A stretch of 64,000 nucleotides of DNA from Dysidea avara (taxonomy: Eukaryota; Porifera; Demospongiae; Dictyoceratida; Dysideidae). Each line of letters starts with the position of its first letter. Position 1 is the first letter of the stretch. This document shows positions 45,966 through 63,579 of the stretch, one piece after another. The stretch covers positions 11,890,694 through 11,954,693 of the forward strand of contig NC_089285.1 of NCBI RefSeq assembly GCF_963678975.1, given 5' to 3'. The notes beneath the pieces were generated by a model, which was not told where the DNA came from, made no database searches, and saw only the letters and a program-made list of their open reading frames with translations. The position numbers were made by a program, and so were the translations under genes.

Positions 45966-46440
45966 GAGTTCAGCTAGAAATAAGTCAGATCAACTAGAAA
46001 CAAATCATGCTGTAGAGAGATCAGCTAGAAAAAAATCACTCTATAGAGAAATCAGCTGAAAACAAGGCACCCTGTAGAGAGACCAGCATGACAAATCACA
46101 CTGTAAGAGCCCAACTACTTTTCAAGTCACCCCATGGACATGGAGAATCCAGCTATGAACAAATCTCTCAGTAGAGATCAGTTAGGCAAGATATCCTGTT
46201 GCCAGTAAAAAGAGTTCAACTATTTTTCAAGTCACCTTGTAGAGAGCTCAGTAGAAATAAGCAGCACTGTAGAGAGATCAGCTAGAAACAAATCATCCTG
46301 TAGAGAGATCAGTTAGAAACAAATCACCCTGTAGAGAAATTAGCCTGATCATGTCACACGGTAGGGTCTTCCAAGTACAGTTCAAGTCAACCTGTAGAGA
46401 GTGTAGCTAGAAACAAGTCACTCTCTAGATCTGTGGTAAA
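45966..46440 (+). repeat. 31-base satellite, array 3 (diverged)
   Basis: Units such as CCTGTAGAGAGATCAGCTAG plus AAACAAATCAC recur on the + strand, with more substitutions and length changes than arrays 1 and 2. This makes it the oldest of the three. Confidence 0.8.
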
Positions 46441-46589
46441 GAAAAAGACAAGTTAATTAAAATAAATACATAAAGCTGGCCATAGCCTGGCTTTAGGTAT
46501 GAAATTATAAAAATAAGTCATATCTAATCAAAAAAACAGCCAAGCTGTAAAAAAGGGTGTGACCTCCACTAGGATTCGGGAACACAAAT

Positions 46590-46725
46590 TCACCTGAATT
46601 GTCGTTATTAAAATTTTTACCATTAACCTACCATCACAGCCATTTCTTGGCCGCCACCTTTGATTTCACATCTTTTTCACCCAGGCTTTTTTAAGGCTGC
46701 ACCCCATTTTAAAGCTTGGCTGTTT
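46590..46725 (+). repeat. Dispersed repeat shared with 22.1 kb
   Basis: AATTCACCTGAATTGTCGTT through CATCACAGCCATTTCTTGGC and CACATCTTTTTCAC matches 22,095-22,240 at roughly 90%. Both copies lie just downstream of a 31-base satellite array. Confidence 0.8.
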
Positions 46726-47331
46726 TTATGTAGACATGGGTATGCACTATAGGCCTCATATCCTAAAGCTGTACATGCACATACGTGCTGTTAGACATGA
46801 GGCTATTATGCTCCAAAAAGTGAACATTCTGCTTTTGAACAGTGCTCAAAAAATCACCTATTATGCTTTTGAGAATTGCCCATTATTCCCAAAATTATAC
46901 CACCATAATTGGTTAATAATACCATTTAATTGCTGTATTACACCATTTTCATTGATGTTTAACTTTCAAATAGTCTTGAATTCTTTAGCTGGTTGCTGTA
47001 TTGCAGTATTTCATTTCAATGTGACTGCTTTATTACAGTAAATAATATTCAGTGACTGCTCTATTAGAGTTTTTGACTGCTCCATTAGAGTATCTCGATC
47101 TTTTTTAACAGAATTGCACAATCTGCATATTTTCCTACTGTTAAAGCTTTATAATCACCTCTAGTATAATTCCTGATTCCCACATATACCTATTATGCCC
47201 GAAATTAGGCTGGCATAATCGCCACACCCCTATGTACTATACAATGTTGCACAAAATACAATCACGCATATACTGTCATAGAATTTAGTTACTTTCTATG
47301 CATGGTACATATATATTATACCTCTTCTTTT
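46726..47331. other. Non-coding stretch
   Basis: AT-rich, no supported exon. Near 46,800-47,200 it repeats ATTATGC and CTCTATTAGAGT motifs without a clear period. Confidence 0.4.
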
Positions 47332-47416
47332 ACTTCATCAAGTGTCAGGTCATGCTGAATTGGCCTTACATAAATCTTTGTCTGGTGGACTACAGCCTTT
47401 AAGTAATCTACAGTGT
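47332..47416 (-). pseudogene. Downstream part of the exon split by the pogo-like element
   Basis: The minus strand reads TVDYLKAVVHQTKIYVRPIQ then HDLTLDEVKEE, followed by a splice donor (GTATAA). It is the direct continuation of the exon at 51016-51880. The reading frame passes through the insertion site when the element and one copy of TA are left out. See that entry for the protein. Confidence 0.7.
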
Positions 47417-47458
47417 ACCGTATACGCAGTTTTTTTCGAGGGATGAAATTTTCACGAA
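47417..47458 (+). repeat. Left terminal inverted repeat of the pogo-like element
   Basis: 42 bases, CCGTATACGCAG ... TTTTCACGAAT, preceded by TA. It mirrors 50972-51013. Confidence 0.88.
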
Positions 47459-47573
47459 TGCCATGATTTGGAGGTTTTCGCGATTTTATTTCCACGAATA
47501 CTGTTTTTGAATCACGTGATTAAATTTTACTAATCATGTGAGTTTACGCGGTAACCACTGCACGCTGAGTTGA

Positions 47574-48972
47574 ATGGATATTAAGCAGTACTTCAAGTTA
47601 AACTTTGAAGACACCTTGCCGAAGAAGGTGCCAAAGGATAGCATACGAGCGGTAGAGAAGGAGCTTAAGGAACGGGCTGAGGCAGTAGCGAACATACGAA
47701 GTGGTGGCTATGTCAAGATTACAGACGAAGAGAGAGCAACGATTGGTGGGTATGCTGCTAGGAATGGAGTTACTGCTGCTTTGCGCCATTTCAAGCAAAC
47801 GAAAGAATATCCTGGTTTAAAAGAAGCCACAGTTTGCGGCTGGAAAAACTTGTATCAAGAAGAACTAAAGAGAAGATCAAAGAAGAGAGGTTCGTGCAAC
47901 GATCCAATAATGCAGTTGCCAGCCAAGCGCCGAGGAAGACCTCTGTTGGTAATCAACTTGAAGCAGAAATAAAAATTATTTCTTGAAGCTATGCGAAAAG
48001 ATGGAAGTGTTGTCAACACACAAGTAGTAATAGGCACTGTGATAGGAGTATGATGCAAACTTACTTGCAGAGCATGGGGGCCCTATCGACATAACAAAAG
48101 ATTGGGCTAAACGGCTGTTGGGGAGAATGGGTCTAGTGAAGCGACATGGTACTACTAAGGCAAAAATCAACCCTTTGGATTTCGACGCTTTGAAAAAGCA
48201 GTACCTTGCTGATATTAGAACCAAGGTCTACATGGAGGACATCCCAGCAGATCTTATTATAAACTGGGACCACACTGGGTTGAAATATGTGTCTGTGTCC
48301 AATTGGACTATGGAACACAAAGGTGCGAAGAGGGTAGAAATAGCTGGCAGTGACGACAAAAGGCAACTTACTGCATTGTTTTCTTGCACATGTAGTGGAA
48401 AATTTCTCTCATCCCAGGTGATTTATGCTGGGAAGACACCGGCATGTCTTCCAAAAGGTAACATTCCAAGTGGGTGGAATTTGACCTTCACCCGAAACCA
48501 TTGGTATAACGAACAAGCGATGATGACCTATTTACACGCCATTCTTATTCCATATGTTGAGAAGACTCGGGCAAATCTGCAATTGAGCAAAAATCACCCA
48601 GTACTTGTAATCTTTGATCAGTTCAAAGCTCAAACTACTGAAAACTCTTAATGCTTTGGAACAGCATCACATATCATTTGTAGAAGTACCAGCTAACTGC
48701 ACTGATCAGTTGCAACCTTTAGATTTGAGCATTAATAAACCTGTCAAGGATCATCTGAAGGGCAGCTTTCAGGATTGGTACGCTGCTGGGGTACGCAGGA
48801 AAATACTAACCGGAGATGGCGACAGAAATGTGATTGATTTGCGTCTTCTTTGCTGAAGCCATTAGGACTTCAATGGCTTGAAAGTGCCTGCACTTACATT
48901 CAGACTACTGATTTTGTAAGAAATGGATTTCATGCAGCAGGCATAACTGAAGCTATATCAGATCTAGTGTAA
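47574..48972 (+). pseudogene. Pogo-like DDE transposase, frameshifted
   Basis: It begins MDIKQYFKLNFEDTLPKKVP. An N-terminal helix-turn-helix region follows (DEERATIGGYAARNGVTAAL, YPGLKEATVCGWKNLYQEEL), then an AT-hook-like LPAKRRGRPLL, a second DNA-binding segment (TKDWAKRLLGRMGLVKRHGT) and the DDE_1 core. The core includes IINWDHTGLKYVSVSNWTME, GAKRVEIAGSDDKRQLTALF, NHPVLVIFDQFKAQTT and PANCTDQLQPLDLSINKPVK. The first two catalytic Asp are visible (INWD, VIFD) and the third is most likely in QPLDLSINK. TAA is at 48970-48972. About four frame changes interrupt it (near 47.96, 48.05, 48.65 and 48.85 kb). It is typical of pogo/Tigger relatives, with the TA target expected of them. Confidence 0.88.
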
Positions 48973-49111
48973 AGATACAGTTAATTGGCTTTTATAAACA
49001 TAAACAATGCTGTGATGTAATGTTGATTTACCAACTTATATTGAAATTAATTAAATGTACACAATAATTAACTTTTATGGTACATCATGTTTGGTATTGC
49101 TATGGAAATGG

Positions 49112-49539
49112 ACAAATGTATCAATCTTGCACAGCAATTGCTGAAGGAAACTTTTCCTAAAATAAATGGGCTAAGATTGACTTTGCTTCAAAACCAAGAC
49201 CACAAGGAGCAAACAGCTAATCGTGTACAGATTTTACATATCAATGGAAATCATTGGGTATGTGCTGCAACAACTAGCAAAGGCAGGTTAGTGCATGTGT
49301 ATGACTCCTTATATACAGGGTGGGACAAAAGTTCATACAAGATGCTGCAAAGACAGTTTCGTTGTAGTCCGTGCAATATCAAATTTGCTAATGTGCAGAA
49401 ACAGTGTGGAGGCACTGACTGTGGTCTCTTTTCTATTGCTTTTGCAACATCTATAGCATTTCAAGAAGATCCTTCACAGAAGAGATATAATCAAGATATT
49501 ATGCATCAGCACCTACTTAACTGCTTCTACTCAAAGAGC
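49112..49539 (+). CDS. C-terminal half of a Ulp1/SENP-like cysteine protease (inverted segment)
   Basis: The frame is open from 49087 to 49545. It reads DKCINLAQQLLKETFPKING, then LHINGNHWVCAATTS, VHVYDSLYTGW, and FANVQKQCGGTDCGLFSIAF. Counting from the first Met at 49087, the C48 peptidase triad is His56 (GNHWV), Asp73 (YDS) and Cys112 (TDCG). An oxyanion Gln106 lies six residues before the Cys, exactly the Ulp1 spacing. All catalytic residues are intact. Such enzymes process SUMO-like modifiers; no substrate can be inferred here. The N-terminal part of the same domain lies on the opposite strand just downstream (49540-49746), so this 430-base block appears to have been inverted. Confidence 0.75.
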
Positions 49540-50821
49540 GGTTAGCATCTGACCTGATGCTAGAGTTATTTTGTCCCCATTAATCAATGAAATATCCTTA
49601 ACCTTCACCCACATGTTACTGTCTTCAGATACTGCAATACTGTTATCAAACAATAACGGCTTTGGTGCTGCATACGAGTGCTCAGTATTGATGTAGCGGA
49701 GAACATTAATTTGATCCTTGGAAGCTCCCACTGTAGCAGTCGACATCTTATTTGCAGGACCAAGAACTAGAGTAGAAACTTGACTGGAGAGTGTAGCAGA
49801 ATGTTGACTGGAGAGTGTAGCAGAAGGTTGACCGGAGAGTTTAGCAGAAGGTTGACAGGAGAGTGTAACAGAAGATTGACTGGAGAGTGTAGCAGAAGGT
49901 TGACTGGAGAGTGTAGCAGAAGGTTGACCGGAGAGTGTAGCAGAAGGTTGACCGGATAGTGTAGCAGAGGTTGACGGGAGAGTGCAGCAGAATGTTGACC
50001 GGAGAGTGTAGCAGAAGGTTGACCGGATAGTGTAGCAGAGGTTGACAGGAGAGTGCAGCAGAATGTTGACCGGAGAGTGTAACAGAAGGTTGACCGGAGA
50101 GTGTAGCAGAAGGTTGACCGGAGAGTTTAGCAGAAGGTTGACCGGAGAGTGTAGCAGAAGGTTGACCGGAGAGTGTAGCAGAAGGTTGACCGGAGAGTGT
50201 AGCAGAAGGTTGACCGGAGAGTGTAGCAGAAGGTTGACCGGAGAGTGTAGCAGAAGGTTGACCGGAGAGTGCAGCAGAATGTCGACCGGAGAGTGTAGCA
50301 GAAGGTTGACTGGAGAGTGTAGCAGAATGTTGACTGGAGAGTGTAGCAGAAGGTTGACTGGAGAGTGTAGCAGAAGGTTGACTGGAGAGTGTAGCAGAAG
50401 GTTGACTGGAGAGTATAGCAGAAGCTTGACTGGGGACTGTTACAGTAATAGTCAAGCTGTTATTCTCATCATGACACTACTCCAAGTTACTATTAAAATG
50501 TGCTCACTCTTCTTTCAAATGATACTTTGCCTTTTCAGCTAGATGTTTATCCCTGTGGAAGATCACTCGAAAATCTCCTGCCACCTGTGATAGTGCAGGT
50601 AATGGACCCACCATGCAGTAGAAAAGTGGAAAACACACATGAAAACTTGCGTGGAACGTGCCCCACAACTACATCCCCCGCCTTCTTGGTGGGACAGCGA
50701 ATGGATCAGCACGATTTTGAGGCTCTCTTGCACAATTTAGAACTTCTCCTACGGTTGAGCTCCAGATTGCTTGATAAATGTGATAACCTCTCACACAGCT
50801 CTGTATCTCAAACTTAAACAT
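49540..50821 (-). pseudogene. HIRAN / QPSATLSG-repeat / Ulp1-start gene of the pogo-like element
   Basis: From ATG at 50821 (an earlier in-frame Met is at 50905): MFKFEIQSCVRGYHIYQAIW, GEVLNCAREPQNRADPFAV, then VVVGHVPRKFSCVFSTFLLH and GGSITCTITGGRRFSSDLPQ. This matches the HIRAN-type domain (R-G-Y ... DPFAVAV ... GHVP-K) found in many multi-copy invertebrate proteins. After a probable intron comes an 8-residue repeat, QPSATLSG, encoded by the minisatellite. Next is MSTATVGASKDQINVLRYIN and WVKVKDISLINGDK, then ITLASGQMLT, the lead-in to a Ulp1-like domain, stopping where the catalytic half has been inverted. HIRAN domains bind DNA ends in helicases such as HLTF; here the role is unknown. There is a one-base frame change after DPFAV and length changes in the repeat. 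Confidence 0.65.
49770..50437 (-). repeat. 24-base coding minisatellite, about 28 copies
   Basis: The unit on + is GTAGCAGAAGGTTGACCGGA plus GAGT. Read on minus, each unit gives eight residues (QPSATLSG / QPSATLSS / QHSAALSG). Most copies are exactly 24 bases, keeping frame. A few 23-base copies near 49.97 and 50.04 kb shift it. Confidence 0.92.
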
Positions 50822-50971
50822 AGTGTAGTGCGAGGTGTAGTGAATCGCCAACCACGTGCTACCGGTATGGGTTCGTGCAGCGGTACATGCTGCATAGCCG
50901 CCCACATGTATTCTATTTCCTTCGTGAAATTTTCACGATTAAATTTTCACGAATGCCATCGTATTCGCGAA

Positions 50972-51013
50972 ATTCGTGAAAATTTCATCCCTCGAAAAAA
51001 ACCACGTATACAG
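50972..51013 (-). repeat. Right terminal inverted repeat of the pogo-like element
   Basis: Mirror of 47417-47458, followed by TA. The adjacent CACGAAT / ATTCGTG motifs are repeated subterminally (50,925-50,990), a likely transposase-binding region by analogy with other pogo elements. Confidence 0.88.
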
Positions 51014-51015
51014 TA

Positions 51016-51880
51016 CCCATTTTCTGGACATGGGATTAATTCCAGCTACCTTCTGAAAGTGTTGATTCTCATTAGTTCCAAGCCTCCAGCAGAGGCTAGC
51101 TTTGGAAAAGTGGTGATTAAATCATCATGCACATCTCTGGAATCACCTCCCAAATATAATGTTGCTTTTTTCTCACCAAGTTGAGCCAGTTGTAAATTAG
51201 CCCTTTCACTGGCATCTGAGGGGATTTCTTGTTTTGAGTTTGCCAAAGCCACGAAAGTGTGGTTCCAAGTTTGAAGTTTTGGTCGCTTTTCCTTAGGCGG
51301 AATGTATGTTCTTTTCCCCTTAGCTGGAGCATACTTGAACTTAAAAATGAGACGCCAATTCCGCTCTACTAGTGCCAGTTACGTTACAGGTGGTAATTGG
51401 GATTCTTCCCGCACTTGCTAGACTTCTTCTAACAGGTAGACACGGAGTAGTAGCTACTGTACTTTGCCACGTGGCCATAGTGCTGATAGTAAACGGAATC
51501 ACTACTGGTATCTGCATACCTGACTGTGACATTGGATGACCGCCTGACTGAGATGGTGCAATTCTTCCTGACATTGCGGGCAAGCTTGTATGAAGTAAAA
51601 TCAGTGTCAATATACTGAACTGTGAAGGCGCCGATGTTATGGGTGCACTAATTGTCATAGTAGCAGTTGAAGCTGCTACTGTATTACTGACCACTGCAGG
51701 GCCAAACACTGGTAGTACTTGACCGCCTGTCTGAGATGGTGCAATGCTTCCTGATATTGCGGGCAAGCTAGTATGAGGTAGAATCAGTGTCAATATACTG
51801 AACTGTGAAGGCACCGATGTTATGGGCGCACTAATTGTCATATGTATTACTGACCACTGCAGGGCCAACACTGGTAGTAC
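51016..51880 (-). pseudogene. Upstream part of a split gene exon (multi-copy invertebrate family)
   Basis: The exon opens after an acceptor (CTGTAG) at 51880. The first part is Ser/Thr/Pro-rich and contains an internal tandem duplication (AAASTATMTISAPITS-type, two copies about 183 bases apart). It then reads KYAPAKGKRTYIPPKEKRP, TWNHTFVALANSKQEIPSDA, LQLAQLGEKKATLYLGGDSR, LITTFPKLASAGGLELMRIN and LELIPCPENG, ending exactly at the pogo-like element. The W-x-H-x-F-V-x-LA ... GLGEKK ... FPKL-x-GGFELMR pattern is one that I recall from uncharacterised invertebrate proteins, some carrying HECT ligase domains further on; no HECT region is seen here. One in-frame stop precedes LELIPCP and one frame change lies near 51,345. 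Confidence 0.6.
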
Positions 51881-55675: not shown

Positions 55676-57720
55676 TCACGCAAGAGGAATAAGCAGCTGC
55701 AATAAAGATAACCATGTTGAGATAAATTCATTTGCTACAAGTCTCATATCCAAGGAATCAGTCAGCTCTTGGTGATAATACAGTAACATCAGGCGGTTCA
55801 AGCATTCTTGTGACATCGTACTCCTTAGGTATGACTTTATCCTTCTAAGAGCACTAAAGGATCTCTCAGAAGTGCAATTAATTGCTGGTATTACTAATAG
55901 AATACAAAATGCAGAGCACACCACGTCCAACATGCCCCTCTGTGCAGGAGTCAAGGACTGAAGAACTGATTTGATAACTCTGATGGAAGGTGGCTCATCT
56001 TTAGCCTTTTCAGAATAAAGTGTTTTCAGTACTTTCAGCTGTGATTCCAGATTGACAGCATGTAAATTGTCATAAAATTCTGTTAAAAAGCTGAGTTCTT
56101 CATAGTTATTATCTGAATCAGCACAAGCTTTAAGAAATAGCTGTTCAATTTTACTATAAGTTTTGTAACCTGGTTGATCAAACCTATCAGTTATGCAGCT
56201 TATTGCCAAATCGAATGATTCAAAGTAAGCCTGCCGGAATAAATCCTTTGGTACAGTATGAAACTCTCCTTCACTCCTACCAGTTTCAAATCTCCTTGGT
56301 CTCTTACGCTTTCTTGGCAAACATGGATCTCCGACACCAAGCTGTTTCCTTTCTAATTCCACTTATTCCCAAAATAAATCAAAGTTGGCTTCTATGTGAA
56401 TAGATTGCAGAGTTTTGACAGTAAGCATTGCAATTTCATATGCTTGTGTACTGGCCAACTCAGGGTTCTGAAGTGATTTACTAAGATTGTCTGTATGCCT
56501 CAAGATCATCTCAGCCAGAATTAAGCTAAAATAGAACTTGAAAGTATCCATCTGGCTAGAAAAACCCTGAATTCGAGCTTTCATCTCTGTTTCTGAAGTG
56601 CATTCCAATGCTTCTTCCCACAAACTTAGGATGTTAGTGTAATTAGCCACGATGCTTTTCATTGACTCAGCACGAACTGTCCATCGTGTCAAACACAATG
56701 TGCGGATAGAAGGGGCATCATCACAGCTTTCCTCCTTCAGCCTCTTGAGCATAGTATCACGTTTGGGAGACCACTTTATGAGCTTTACCAACTCATAACA
56801 GGTGTCAAGGCAATCTCTCAGCATCACACACTTCTTGATAGTGTCACCAACAGCCAAATTAAGAGCATGGCCATAACAGTGTGTGAACACAGCTTTGGGC
56901 TCCATATCCTGTACCTTATTAGCCACACCATTGTGGGATCCAGCCATTGTTGAACAGCCATCATAACACTGACCACGAAGTTTTGTTAAAGGTATCTGAA
57001 AGTGCATAAGTGCATCCAGTATAGTAGAGGTTATACTTTCAACAGTGGCACTGTCTATTTGGTACATTCCCAGGAACTCTTCATACACATCCAAATTGTG
57101 ATCTATCCTACGCATAACCAATGTAAGTTGTTCTTTGTTTGAAATATCAGTGGTTTCATCTACCATTATTGAAACACAAGTAGATTCATGAATGAAACTG
57201 AGGATACTATTTAACACAGAGCGACCCATTATTTTTATCTTGAATCTCATGTGATGTGTATTTATTTGTTTGCCTTTCCATCCATCTGGTCAAATTAGAC
57301 TCTACATCATTTTTGCTACCACGCAAAGCCAGGCCTTGTCTTGCTAAAAATCTTACAGTTGACAAAATGATTTGAAGCATTCCTCTAGCTGTCTCTTTAT
57401 CTCACTTGTGGTTACTGCTCATCAACTCACCAATATCTCTTGTTGCTCTTGGTAGTGTAATCACAGACTCAACAGCCTCACTGTGTGTGCTAGAAGACTG
57501 GTGTTTCTTGATGGACATTGTGGCATCTTACCAGTTGCTAAATCCTTTGGTGATCTGAAATAAAACACTTTGTAAAAATAGCACATGTAGTTTACCACTG
57601 ACTTACAAAAGCTGCAGCTGCATTGTGACTGGACTTGATTTTATTAAGTTTAAATGCAGTGATACAAGTATGGCAAAAGACAACATCTTGAGATTCATCA
57701 TAGTGAAGAAATGGCCAATT
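55676..57720 (-). pseudogene. hAT transposase (TTF-finger/DUF4371 type), 3' main part
   Basis: Minus-strand order: WPFLHYDESQDVVFCHTC (TTF-type finger), a 52-base intron (57606-57555, GTAAGT...TTTCAG), ITKGFSNW, SIKKHQSSSTHSEAVES, FLARQGLALRGSKNDVESN (DUF4371), catalytic SIMVDETTDISNKEQLTL, LRGQCYDGCSTMAGSHNGVA, HCYGHALNLAVGDTIKKC, LCLTRWTVRAESMKSI, and the dimerisation end PAINCTSERSFSALRRIKSY. It is damaged by three in-frame stops (after FSNW, after SSNHK, and after DLFWE at about 56,364) and a frame change near 57,260. The N-terminal part of the same protein lies on the other strand at 59641-59981, because of an inversion whose left breakpoint is at about 57,715-57,720. Confidence 0.88.
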
Positions 57721-58458
57721 TACTTCTGCCAAATTCAATCAGTTTGCACAACAATGAGGCTTTTTTCATAAGACATCATCCCAGTACCACCCACAGAGCA
57801 ATGGCAAAATTGAATCCACAGTTAAATCGATGAAAAAATTATTTACACCTCATGGAATGGTCGCTTCTTAGACGATGACAAATTTTGTCGTGCCCTACTT
57901 CAATACAGGAACACACCCTCTCGAAAAGATAGTGTGTTACCAGCCCAAAAGCTTTTTGGACATCCTACCCAAGACAACCTACTACAATGCACATGCTCAA
58001 CCCCTCACTGAGATTGAGATTGGAACTAATGTCGCCATCCAAAACCCCCGCACCAAACTGTGGGATATCTATGGCATCATCACAGCCATTTCACCAAACC
58101 GAAGATATTACGTCAAAACCTCCAGTGGCCGAGTGTTGGTTAGAAACCGTCGATTCTTATGCTGAAGAGTCCCCCTTTCTATACCACTACAGTCAGGTAC
58201 CACAACGCTAGATCCTCACACAGACCCACTTCCTCCACCACCCCGCCACTCTACACGGGTCAAGTATCCAACCAAGCATCTCATTGAAGACCCCACATGG
58301 AACTGACGTGATACTTATTGACTGTAGCTAACTTAAATAAACATTTGTGATTTTTGTATGTACAACCTCCCAAATGCTTGGTGAGAGGTGTAGGATAATA
58401 TTCCTGTTGTTGCACACTTTGTATCACATGCATGTGTAATCATTATTGAGTTCATACA
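57721..58458 (+). mobile_element. Part of a Ty3/gypsy element: integrase end and one LTR
   Basis: The + strand shows the end of an integrase core (YHPQSNGKIESTVKSMKKLF, LLQYRNTPSRKDSVLPAQK), an integrase tail with IGTNVAIQNPRTKLWDIYG, IITAISPNRRYYVKTSSG and RVLVRNRRFL, and a 70-base LTR at 58389-58458. The remainder of the element is on the minus strand at 59982-63579. The fossil is broken; see that entry. Confidence 0.8.
58389..58458 (-). repeat. 70-base LTR of the gypsy element
   Basis: Read on minus it runs TGTATGAAC ... ATCCTACA and differs from 63510-63579 at two positions. GTTAC (minus strand, 58459-58463) precedes it, matching GTTAC at 63580-63584, a 5-base target duplication. Confidence 0.88.
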
Positions 58459-59640
58459 GTAACAAGCTATCTTCAATTGAATTGAAAAGTTGAGTTGGTG
58501 TTTCAAAGCCATAGATGGCTACAAATGCTTTATAATGTCTTTTAATGTAGCAAGTTCCTACCAGCCTAAGGAATGCTAGGAAATCTCTTTCTCTGTTTAA
58601 CAAGTCTGTTTCGTGCAAGCTGCCTTGACCATTCATGCCATTGATAAAAGTAGCATGCTGCATGAATACGTTTATAATGGTGGCCTTGCCAAAAGGTTTG
58701 AAATAAGATATGTAGTTGCACCCAGTGATGATGTACAATGACTGCATAATTGAGCCAAGGTGTTCACTCGGTAAGTTGTAAAGATCTGGATCTCTGTGCA
58801 GTACCACCTTGAGGTTGTTAAGAAACAGGTATTTCTTTTCTAGTGCATGACGGACGTTAAGTTTGATAATGTATTACTTGTTGTTGCTTGGTATGTTTAG
58901 CCCAATATTATAGATGTCTGTATCGGGAGAATGATATTAGCAGTTTTTTGAGCAGCATGATGCCATATTCTGTAGTCTGCCTCTGAAGCATTGGAATCAT
59001 AAGCTACAACTCTTTCTGGCAATGTTCCAGCTCTTATTGACCACGCACAATTACCATCAAAACAACCTGCTATGACAAGGTGTTGTTGGCCTTGAAGCAA
59101 AGTATGTACTGACTGTAAAAAGTAGAACCCAATTGCTTTTACTATGGCCCACTTACAAGTAAGGCACTCCGAAAGCTCCTGCCAAAAAGGTGGAATATCA
59201 GTGTTTACATCAAAATGACAATGTTCATGCATTTTAAATGTCTTCTTGTACCATCTATCTTGTTCAAATATCTTTGGGTTGAAAGAGTTTCTACATGGAC
59301 TATCAAATACCAAATGTACTTCACAGATCCCTGTTTTGAAGTGATGGAGGATGTATTGGTGGAATAAAAGCTTGCTGTACTCAGCAATGGTGTTTGTCCT
59401 CCTTAGTGGCTTTGTGTTCAGCATGAACATCGCATCAATGATAACTGCTTGTGGCAGACATTGGAGGGAATATGTGACAATTCTTGTTTCACTCAATTGA
59501 TATGGTTTTTGTAATTTGTCAGTCCAGTGGCTCTTACTTGACTTGTTAGGCATTCCATTTTCATCGCATAGTGCTCTTGGTAACACTGTGTATTGCTCTT
59601 TGTTGGAATTGAAAGATGCCTGGTGTTCATTGCACCAGTA
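58459..59640 (-). CDS. Nuclease-like gene, middle part (multi-copy invertebrate family)
   Basis: From the hAT end: YWCNEHQASFNSNKEQYTVL, PRALCDENGMPNKSSKSHW, QAVIIDAMFMLNTKPLRRTN, EVHLVFDSPCRNSFNPKIFE, HCHFDVNTDIPPFWQELSEC, LVIAGCFDGN, SNASEADYRIWHHAAQKTAN, then IYNIGLNIPSNN, LEKKYLFLNNLKVVLHRDPD, IMQSLYIITGCNYISYFKPF, GKATIINVFMQHA and FLRLVGTCYIKRHYKAFVAI. IDAMF ... VFD ... EADYRIW ... acidic pairs followed by a TGCDYISYFK-like segment resemble the layout of FEN1/XPG-type flap nucleases (D, E/D-rich N and I regions, then a helical hairpin); this is inference. One frame change lies near 58,870. It is cut upstream by a hAT element and downstream by an LTR element. Confidence 0.6.
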
Positions 59641-59981
59641 CAGGGGCGGCGCCACCGGTCAGGTTGGTCAGGGGAACCTGAACCGCTTTAGCTTGAAATG
59701 CAATAAAATTTTTATACCCGCTTTATAATTTTATAACACACTCACCTGAGGTACAGTGTGTAACTGTTACACACAGTATAGAATGGACGTTGTGAAGGAA
59801 CATAGCCCACACTTTACGAAAAATCGTTGTATTCTAATTAATTCACGTGGCACTATGAGTGTTAAAACTGATGAGCTGCCAGATTTGCCTGCTGAACCTC
59901 ACCAGCCATCTTCATTCAACTTCTTTTGGTCAGAAAAAGCCGGTGTACTGTAGCTTTCAAAGCCAGTGGTTTATTAATTGG
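59641..59981 (+). mobile_element. 5' end of the TTF-finger hAT element (inverted relative to its body)
   Basis: It begins CAGGGGCGGCGCCACCGG, a hAT terminus, flanked by CACCAGTA (59633-59640). An ATG at 59783 opens MDVVKEHSPHFTKNRCILIN, then DELPDLPAEPHQPSSFNF and, one frame over, FGQKKPVYCSFQSQWFINW. That is the start of the TTF finger, whose continuation (NWPFLHYDES) is found on the opposite strand at about 57,715. The split falls at a shared AATTGG / CCAATT hexamer. A one-base frame change lies near 59,920. Confidence 0.85.
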
Positions 59982-62900
59982 GGTCCACCATCGGACCAGA
60001 GAATGTCTGGGATGGCAGTCCTACAAAATGCTTGCCTGAGAGCTGCAGTGATTTGGGGTGTGGTGGTGTTATGTGGCATGGAGATGATAGCGGGCCAGTC
60101 AGTGTAGCAGTCTACCATAATTAGATAATCATGGCCAGCATATGAACAGAGGTCCACGGCGATTTCCTGGAATGGTTGGGTGGGTCTTGGTTTTTGAATG
60201 ATGGGTTCTTTAGAGTTTGATGGAAGGTGATCTTGGCACTGTTGACAGGCAAGTGTGATGTTTTCAATGTCATTGTCCAGCCCTGGCCAATATATGGTTA
60301 GTCTAGCACGTTGTTTGGTTTGTAGTGCTCCTTGGTGGGCTTCGTGAAGATTGGCAAGGACTTGGTTACGCATAGTGGAGGGTATGAGGAGTCTGCATCC
60401 ATATACAATCAGGTCATCGTCTAGGGTTAAGTGTTGGTGAACATTCCAAAATCTTTTGCAGGGCTCTGGTAACTGTTTACGGGTCTTTGGGAACCCGTTG
60501 ACTATAAAGTTTCGTAATAGCTGGTATTCCTCATCTTGTTCGGCTTCTTCGCATAGCTTTTGCAAGCGTAAGCTTTCAGGGTGTGTGTTGATGATTGCCC
60601 TGATTTCTGTAAAGGACTTTTCAGGATTATCATGTATGTCTAATTCAGCCAGCATTTCGCTTGTCTGAGGGTCGTGCACCGGGTGCCATGACAAAGCATC
60701 AGGGGCATCATTCTTACAGCCCTTGAGCCACTGTGCAGTGAAATTGTGCACCATCAGCCGTGTTTTGAGTCATTGAAGTCGGGGATTTTCGATTTCGTCT
60801 AGACGGTGGCTGTTCAGGATCGGAATCAGGGGGTTGTGATCTGTGATGATGGTGAAATGCTGTAGGCCTGTTAGAAATAGTTTGCATTTGGAGACGGCCC
60901 AACATACGGCCAGCATTTCTAGTTCCACGACGGCATACCTTGATTCAGTGTCAGTGAGGAATCTTGACCCTGCCTGGATGAGATTCCAAGTGCCTGCATT
61001 GTTTTGTTGTAGTATGAAGCCAAGGCCATGGCGGCTGGCATCAGTTGACAGACGAGTTGGCTTGTTAGCATCAAAATAGGATAGGACTGGTGCAGTTGTG
61101 AGGGCATCTTTGACTACTTCGATGGCTTGTTGATGATCAGGTGACCATAGGAAGTCGTTCTTGGTGCTGAGGAGTGGGCAGAGTGGTGTGAGTAGTGAGG
61201 CTACAGCATGTGTGCTTGATGACAGCTGATTGACTAAGCCAAAGAATGACCGCAAATCTGTTCGGTTAGTAGGGGTAGGAAACTGAGAGATGGCATCTGT
61301 GATGGAACAGTCGACTTGGTAGCCTTGTGCTGACGGTGAATCCTGCAAAGGTTACTTCACGCTGATTGAATTTGCACTTCCTTTGGGTTTAGGGCTATGT
61401 GCTTGTCTGCACAGCATTGGAGAAATTGCCTAACGTGGGTAGCATGTTGATGTTCGTCACTATCGTAAATGATAATGTCGTCAACGACACAGTGAAAACC
61501 TGTGAGTCCCGAGAAAGCCTCGGCCATCCAACGATCATAGTGTTCTGATATAGAGGAGACGCCATATGGAGCACGGAGGTACTTAAACCTGCCAAAGGGT
61601 GTGATGAAGGTGGTGAGGATTTGGCTATCTTGGTCTAATGGGCACTGATGGTAGCCTTTCATGGCGTCAAATACGGTGAAGAATTTCGCGTTGGCGGCTG
61701 CAATGTCAGCAATTGCCTGTGCAGGGGTATCTGATTGGTATCGTTCTCTGCAGACGTAACGATTGAGGTGTGAGAGGTCCACACACATTCAGATTCTGTC
61801 CGTGTCCTTCTTGGGGGTCACTACTATGGGGCACACCATTCTGTGGCAGTGGTGACTGGTGCTATGATGTGCTGCGATTGTAGAAGGTCTAATTCCGCTT
61901 GAAGTTTGTCGCGGTAGGCGAATGGAATGGACCGTGGTGTGTTGATACAAAAAGGCTTTACATCGTCGGTTAAGGAAATGTGGAACTGCTCGCCTTCCAT
62001 GCTCCTGATTTGTCCATCAAAGACAGTAGGGTATTCTAATGTGACGTGATCAGCTGTAAGAGTGCTGTGGGGATGGAGGGGGTTGGTGGCAGAGTCATTT
62101 CATGTACTTTTGGATATGTTATGGGGTTAGGATAGCAAGGTGGTAATATTTGGAGGGCCTTGCATGCCGTCCAAGAGAGGAGGGTACCCTGGATGTCTGG
62201 GTAAATGTGTACATCTTCAAGGTGTTCCGATTGTCCAAGGCGGAATTTGACTGGAAGCTTTCCTAATGGGAACATCGTACCCTGGATGTCTGGGTAAATG
62301 TGTACATCTTCAAGGTGTTCCGATTGTCCAAGGCGGAATTTGACTGGAAGCTTTCCTAATGGGAACATCTTGGCTCCATTTACTGCTTTGGGGATCACAT
62401 TAGAAGGTGCAAGGGTGTTGATGTGTTCATTGAGGTGAACGAGTATCTCTTTCCCAGCTGCTGAGATATCAGCACCAGAATCAGGGAGAGCTTTACAGTA
62501 ATAAGAACCATTTGCAGAAGTGATGTTAACTGTGATTAATGGAGCTGGATCAGAGGAAGCCACGTGGCGAATGTTAGATAGTCTTCTGGGGTGAGGCGTG
62601 GTGGCTGGGGCGGTAAAGGGACCATGGTGCCTAGCCTTGCTTCTGCAAACCTTTGCAAAATGGCCAACTTTTTGGCAGTTTGATTGTAAGCTGGGCACTG
62701 GGTCCGGCCGGCTGGGTGGGTTGGAGCACCACAGCCTTGACATGTGGATGTTGGAGGACGAGGGTGCTGGTCTTGTGGCTTGCGGAGTGCAGCTACTTCA
62801 GGGTTGTAGTTGTGTAGGTGAGCTCGCTGTTTTTTGGCAGCTTCCTGTGCTTGACATTTGCTGACTGCCTTAGCTAAGGTAAAGTCAGCTTCTTGTAAAA

Positions 62901-63579
62901 GGTCTTCGGTGGTATCTGCATCTAGCAGCCCATCAATGATCTGGTCGCGAATGTTTTTGCTAGTGCAGGCATCTGAACAGAAGTTGCGCGTCTTTACGAG
63001 TTCGCGAAGGGACACAAGAAAGTCATCAAACGACTCGCCCACTTGTGTGCGTTTACGGAAGTGTCTTCGTTCAACCGTTTCATTGACGTGACCATCTACG
63101 TAGCATTTAATAGCACGAATTATGGATGCGACATTTCCATTTTCTTCCTCGGTTAACCCAAGGTTTTGTACGATCGACAGGGTGTCACGAGAGAAGCATA
63201 GCATAAGGGCTTGTACCTGTTTTTGTGCGTTTTCATCGGACAGGCTGCAGTAAGACTCCCATTGTGTCATCTACGCCGCGAAGTCGGTCCCATGGTCCAC
63301 TGACAGGTCCAGTTTGGGAAGGTCTCCTTGGCGGAAGGTGAATGGCATAGTGTCTGGTAGGGGATAAAATGGCGACAAAAAACACAACGTGAACAATAAT
63401 TCCGTAACCTTTCTGGGTGCCTCTTGCCGGCACTAGGGAACCTTGAGGACAGTCGGTCAGACAAAAAACGATCATTAAGGTTAGGATTCTGACCCTGCTT
63501 GGAGCGCCATGTATGAACTCAATAATGATTACACACGCACGTGATACAAAGTGTGCAACAACAGGAATATTATCCTACA
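59982..63579 (-). mobile_element. Ty3/gypsy element with very short LTRs: gag, protease, RT, RNase H, integrase
   Basis: Minus-strand order: LTR (63510-63579), primer-site region TGGCGCTCCAAGCAGGG, gag (RHFRKRTQVGESFDDFLVSL, VAALRKPQDQHPRPP), a zinc-knuckle remnant, protease (KALPDSGADISAAGKEI), reverse transcriptase (CVDLSHLNRYV, FTVFDAMKGYHQCPLD, RAPYGVSSISEHYDRWM, VVDDIIIYDSD), RNase H (LSTDASRHGLGFILQQ, IITDHNPLIPILNSH), and integrase finger and core (LLIPSTMRNQVLANLHEAHQ, EIAVDLCSYAGHDYLIMVD). It is broken in at least five places and part of it lies on the other strand (57721-58458). LTR difference is about 3% (2 of 70). It inserted into the nuclease-like gene, with target duplication GTTAC. 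Confidence 0.88.
63510..63579 (+). repeat. 70-base LTR of the gypsy element
   Basis: TGTATGAAC ... ATCCTACA, followed by target duplication GTTAC (63580-63584). Unusually short for an LTR, but TG/CA ends, the duplicated flank and adjacency to gag agree. Confidence 0.88.

Follow-up and report, generated by a model that had tools for sequence, protein, structure and literature searches.

A decayed pogo-like transposon in the sponge Dysidea avara with HIRAN and Ulp1-type protease sequence between its terminal repeats

The stretch of DNA analysed here, 64,000 nucleotides of the sponge Dysidea avara (contig NC_089285.1, positions 11,890,694 to 11,954,693, hereafter the window), contains a unit bounded by terminal inverted repeats (TIRs) that holds sequence for a pogo-like transposase, a HIRAN domain, an array of short repeats and an Ulp1-type protease (Table 1). 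The unit is real, and it is dead in this copy, with the transposase frame and the HIRAN and repeat frames all broken. We read it as a decayed transposon of the pogo superfamily that once had a pair of convergent genes, with a DDE transposase on the left and an accessory gene encoding HIRAN, the repeats and the protease on the right, the protease end of which was later inverted. The chances of this reading seem to us about even. It is based on the TIRs and the flanking TA, on the profile matches to DDE_1, Peptidase_C48 and HIRAN, on the compact layout, on the lack of inner repeats bounding the accessory sequence, and on the lack of any significant match to its pieces elsewhere in the window.

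The boundaries are well defined. The two TIRs are identical at 39 of their 42 bases, as against 22 of 42 for the best of 20,000 random pairs drawn from within the window, and a 30-base core of the TIR has two matches in the window, compared with a mean of 0.00 over 100 shuffles. TA flanks both ends. The end motif recurs in both orientations just inside the right TIR, and such subterminal copies are a common form of transposase binding site. TIRs and a TA target site are traits of the pogo superfamily, and the unit combines a TA target-site duplication, TIRs at both ends and a DDE_1 catalytic domain. Its parts lie close together: 156 bases separate the left end from the transposase frame, the last piece of that frame is followed after a further 117 bases by the protease open reading frame (ORF), and the HIRAN piece is 189 bases from the right end. 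An earlier note on this DNA, made from the letters alone, had described the 42-base repeats, the TA duplication and a DDE_1 transposase starting 157 bases inside one end. All of these hold.

Table 1 Features of the transposon-like unit, in positions of the window
Feature	Position	Strand	Basis
Target-site duplication TA, left	47416-47417		Flank comparison
Left terminal inverted repeat, 42 bases	47418-47459	+	39/42 identical to right end; core matches
Pogo-like transposase remnant, at least five frame pieces	47574-48969	+	Reading frames; DDE_1 matches
Transposase frame pieces	47574-47969, 47973-48050, 48046-48648, 48611-48853, 48838-48969	+	Reading frames
Ulp1-type (Peptidase_C48) protease ORF, 152 residues, uninterrupted	49087-49545	+	Pfam; His, Asp, Gln and Cys codons
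Open stretch past the repeats, possibly the start of the protease domain severed by an inversion	49534-49779	-	Reading frame
24-nt repeat array, QPSATLSG-like units; two 23-nt units shift the frame	49780-50430	-	Period and unit listing
HIRAN domain, split over two frame pieces that overlap (parts of 50672-50932 and 50550-50705)	50550-50824	-	Pfam on joined pieces
Right subterminal stretch, extra end-motif copies	50910-50971		End motif in both orientations
Right terminal inverted repeat, 42 bases	50972-51013	-	39/42 identical to left end
Target-site duplication TA, right	51014-51015		Flank comparison

The transposase gene is broken in this copy: its frame is interrupted by a stop and shifts several times. 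Two of the pieces match DDE_1, one at 23.7 bits and the other at 21.7 bits, just below the Pfam cut-off of 22. Candidate catalytic acidic codons are found at 48268, 48616 and 48704. They were picked by motif, and both the members of the DDD/E triad and the pogo-type spacing are presumed; the last two are 28.3 codons apart, a count that crosses a frame change. A match of the N-terminus to the NCBIfam model HpnN (20.5 bits against a cut-off of 1100) was dismissed as spurious.

The protease ORF, by comparison with its profile, is an incomplete domain. It scores 27.3 bits against Peptidase_C48 (PF02902; cut-off 20.7 bits) over profile positions 89-198 of 217, the first 88 positions being unmatched. 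Codons for the catalytic-type His, Asp, Gln and Cys are present at 49252, 49303, 49402 and 49420, and these four columns align with those of the Ulp1-like SUMO protease 6dg4, a weak match in the PDB (E 0.13). Single-sequence structure predictions were of low confidence, with a mean predicted local distance difference test score (pLDDT) of 41.2 and 32.9. A fold search with the protease model returned 535 matches at E of 10 or below, none of them at 0.001 or below, and no Ulp1 among the best 50.

HIRAN is a DNA-binding domain. Here it is recognised (PF08797, 29.1 bits; curated cut-off 24.7 bits) only when two frame pieces are joined through an X spacer; scored singly, one piece gives 13.0 bits, below the cut-off, and the other gives no HIRAN match. 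In a comparison of the HIRAN sequence with PDB sequences the sole match was an NTF2-like protein at E 0.18. Further along the minus strand there are stops and more frame changes before the repeat array, which has a period of 24 nucleotides and 27.2 copies. Within the array there are two identical 23-nt units (49953-49975 and 50024-50046) in near-identical surroundings, and it looks as if the frame-changing unit was duplicated along with its neighbours.

The strand layout is what calls for explanation. The protease lies on the plus strand together with the transposase, while HIRAN and the repeats are on the minus strand. On the minus strand, the frame leading out of the repeats runs as far as 49534; on the plus strand, the protease ORF closes at 49545. 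The two frames therefore meet tail to tail at one place. In the plus-strand ORF the C48 domain has no recognised start, the profile match beginning only at position 89. Both this and the tail-to-tail meeting would be accounted for by a local inversion of about 0.43-0.46 kb, and we consider it likely that there was formerly one HIRAN-repeat-Ulp1 gene whose protease end (about 49087-49545) was flipped in this way. The minus-strand stretch beyond the repeats would then be the severed start of the protease domain. By eye, its last residues resemble the start of an Ulp1/SENP domain; the stretch alone has no Pfam match.

This layout modifies what had been proposed. The earlier note had described a single convergent gene with a HIRAN domain, a QPSATLSG repeat linker and a C48 protease with intact His, Asp, Gln and Cys. 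The repeat linker is there as the 24-nt array on the minus strand, the protease and its four residues are confirmed, and HIRAN and the repeats do run opposite to the transposase. The protease does not, and faces the opposite way to HIRAN, so that a single gene containing both is not present in this copy. The sequence does support the broader claim of a pogo-like element whose ends enclose HIRAN and Ulp1-type sequence. Of the three profile searches that the note had suggested, DDE_1 (in one of its two matching pieces) and Peptidase_C48 exceed their cut-offs directly and HIRAN does so on joined pieces only. The stops and frame changes in the transposase and in the HIRAN and repeat frames are an addition to that description.

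A number of results weigh against a two-gene transposon with an inverted protease end. When the minus-strand piece was placed in front of the protease, the C48 score was 26.7 bits, as against 27.6 bits without it; with the piece reversed the score was 26.9 bits and with the piece scrambled 26.7 bits, and the match was not lengthened. The inverted match between the two breakpoint regions is 7 bases long, which is at chance level: 872 of 2000 random pairs of regions had a match of at least 7. Over the 25 repeat units of 24 nt, the codon differences from the consensus comprise 0 synonymous and 28 non-synonymous changes, where 22 of the 72 possible single changes to the unit would be synonymous, with the reservation that duplicated units are not independent. 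These counts give no indication that the array has been under purifying selection. In the transposase, the first 132 residues (47574-47969) have no significant Pfam match, and the N-terminal DNA-binding domain is for this reason unconfirmed; by eye we take it to resemble a psq-type helix-turn-helix, which Pfam did not confirm. Finally, there was only one copy of the element available for examination. A PDB search with the protease and the minus-strand piece together gave 6dg4 as a weak match at E 0.19 (0.13 without the piece), alongside a ribosomal protein at E 0.72.

The same layout could also have arisen with no inversion, from two separate accessory genes: a small protease gene on the plus strand downstream of the transposase, and a HIRAN-repeat gene on the minus strand, arranged tail to tail. 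An ORF of 152 residues with its own ATG and stop is what such a protease gene would look like, and the joining test with Pfam gave no support to a fusion. This explanation leaves profile positions 1-88 of C48 unmatched in the ORF, and has to treat as incidental that only a few codons lie between the stop of the minus-strand frame and the end of the protease. On balance we find it improbable.

It is also necessary to ask whether the accessory sequence is an original part of the unit. One alternative is that a different mobile element carrying HIRAN and Ulp1 was inserted into a plain pogo element. The terms HIRAN, Ulp1, protease, peptidase and SUMO are all absent from the main text of two surveys of the pogo superfamily (PMC7386202, PMC7325037), which would fit a plain host element, and Ulp1 domains have been found in other groups of transposons (PMC2836005, PMC3212892). 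Against this, the list of 25 inner inverted-repeat pairs contains none that encloses the HIRAN-protease block, and the block takes up nearly the whole interval from the last transposase piece to the right subterminal repeats. We regard nesting as very improbable.

A more serious competitor, though still an unlikely one in our view, is a one-off capture of the Pack-TIR type, in which gap-filling repair brought part of a HIRAN-Ulp1 gene of the host into an ordinary pogo element, giving a chimera at this site only. Pack-TIRs exist in animals, and most of the single-copy ones are attributed to gap filling (PMC8277862). In addition, no second copy of the element was found: no piece of it has a significant match elsewhere in the window (lowest E 0.15 for protein and 0.016 for DNA), and no relative was confirmed in collections of viral, bacterial, archaeal, plasmid and phage sequences, which hold few or no animal genomes. 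Some stretches in viral and genome contigs fitted a peptide pattern; none passed tblastn. Phage sequences searched with the protease, and plasmids searched with a transposase piece, likewise gave no confirmed match. Misses in these collections say little, because they are made up of viruses, bacteria, archaea and plasmids. The size of the capture is a difficulty, since a stretch of 1.7-1.9 kb would be needed and the median captured stretch in Pack-TIRs is 224 bp (PMC8277862). Sources of Pack-TIR captures tended to be nearby (PMC8277862), yet no parental copy of the cargo is present outside the element within the 64-kb window. The cargo frame also starts near the subterminal repeats, which would suit a settled layout better than a chance capture.

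A wider proposal goes beyond this copy, namely that a convergent HIRAN-repeat-Ulp1 gene is stable cargo in a lineage of pogo elements, that its product, brought to DNA by HIRAN, strips SUMO-like tags to counter silencing or to assist transposition, and that many HIRAN-type genes in some invertebrates go back to the spread of such elements. We put this forward tentatively, as rather less probable than its opposite. For the two-gene transposon that we read in this copy, a likely mode of action can be given. The transposase would bind the end and subterminal repeats, cut the element out and insert it at TA. HIRAN would bring the accessory protein to DNA, where it would free proteins at the element of SUMO or of some other ubiquitin-like tag, and the removal of the tag may help the element to evade silencing or to finish repair. 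SUMO has been tied to silent chromatin and to transposon silencing in animals. Ulp1-type proteases recur as extras in several unrelated groups of transposons (PMC2836005, PMC3212892); a pogo element with an Ulp1-type protease joined to HIRAN would add one more independent case to these, and would suggest that transposition is repeatedly controlled through SUMO or ubiquitin-like tags.

Known systems resemble the element in different respects. The pogo superfamily (Tigger, Passer and others) shares with it the DDE_1 transposase, the TIRs and the TA, but neither survey of it (PMC7386202, PMC7325037) has HIRAN or Ulp1 in its main text, unlike the element here. Ginger1, an animal DNA transposon, has an Ulp1 domain as here, but as the C-terminal part of a transposase resembling Gypsy integrase, and no HIRAN is described in the available part of the paper (PMC2836005). 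Mutator elements are likewise DNA transposons with an Ulp1-type protease (cited in PMC2836005), in agreement with what the earlier note had said of them; they differ in having the Mutator transposase, again with no HIRAN described there. The oomycete CryptonF and CryptonS elements carry a C48 peptidase as an added domain or protein, but are tyrosine recombinase and not DDE elements (PMC3212892). Both of these papers contain the words 'pogo' and 'Ulp1', with pogo mentioned in passing only. A search of the open-licence literature, by title and the start of the abstract, gave no case of HIRAN or Ulp1 joined to a pogo element among the matches listed.

Other systems are comparable in their architecture. 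MarCry-1_FO, of which four copies were analysed, is a Mariner-type element with TIRs and TA and a second, foreign gene, as here, except that the second gene is a Crypton recombinase (PMC3212892). The ciliate elements Tec and TBE are relatives of Tc1/mariner with three ORFs, one of which in Tec is on the opposite strand; they differ in that the extra genes are a recombinase (Tec) or a zinc-finger gene (TBE), and that the TIRs of Tec are about 700 bp long (PMC7325037). Animal Pack-TIRs have non-transposon sequence inside TIR ends, as here, but are mostly short and single-copy (PMC8277862), and the element here also holds a transposase.

The immediate flanks were also considered. Open minus-strand frames at 47319-47417 and 51049-51378 become one frame, with one stop between them, when the flanks are joined, as if the element were set in a coding region. 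Restoration of a frame at the empty site was tried as a proof of insertion and rejected: of 4340 control TA-to-TA excisions within the window, 3495 gave open runs of at least 43 codons, and restoration is therefore no evidence of insertion. The best open run at the real site is 58 codons, as against a median of 75 in the control. The flanking frame has a presumed likeness to a gene family; its two pieces have no Pfam match, and the larger has no NCBIfam match.

Some further features of the window may be added. Beside the element, at 51537-51842, there is a direct repeat of 123 nt in two copies that are 93% alike. An inverted repeat at 46529-46730, with 31-nt arms that are 87% complementary and 140 nt apart, is possibly a small miniature inverted-repeat transposable element, and 46001-46429 contains six diverged copies of a 47-nt reference, several of them spaced 31 nt apart. 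The regions 11087-42250 and 55676-63270 contain many long ORFs that look by eye like polyproteins of copia- and gypsy-like retrotransposons and like hAT transposases. Weak matches at a spacing of 76 nt in 1326-1780 suggest a tandem array.

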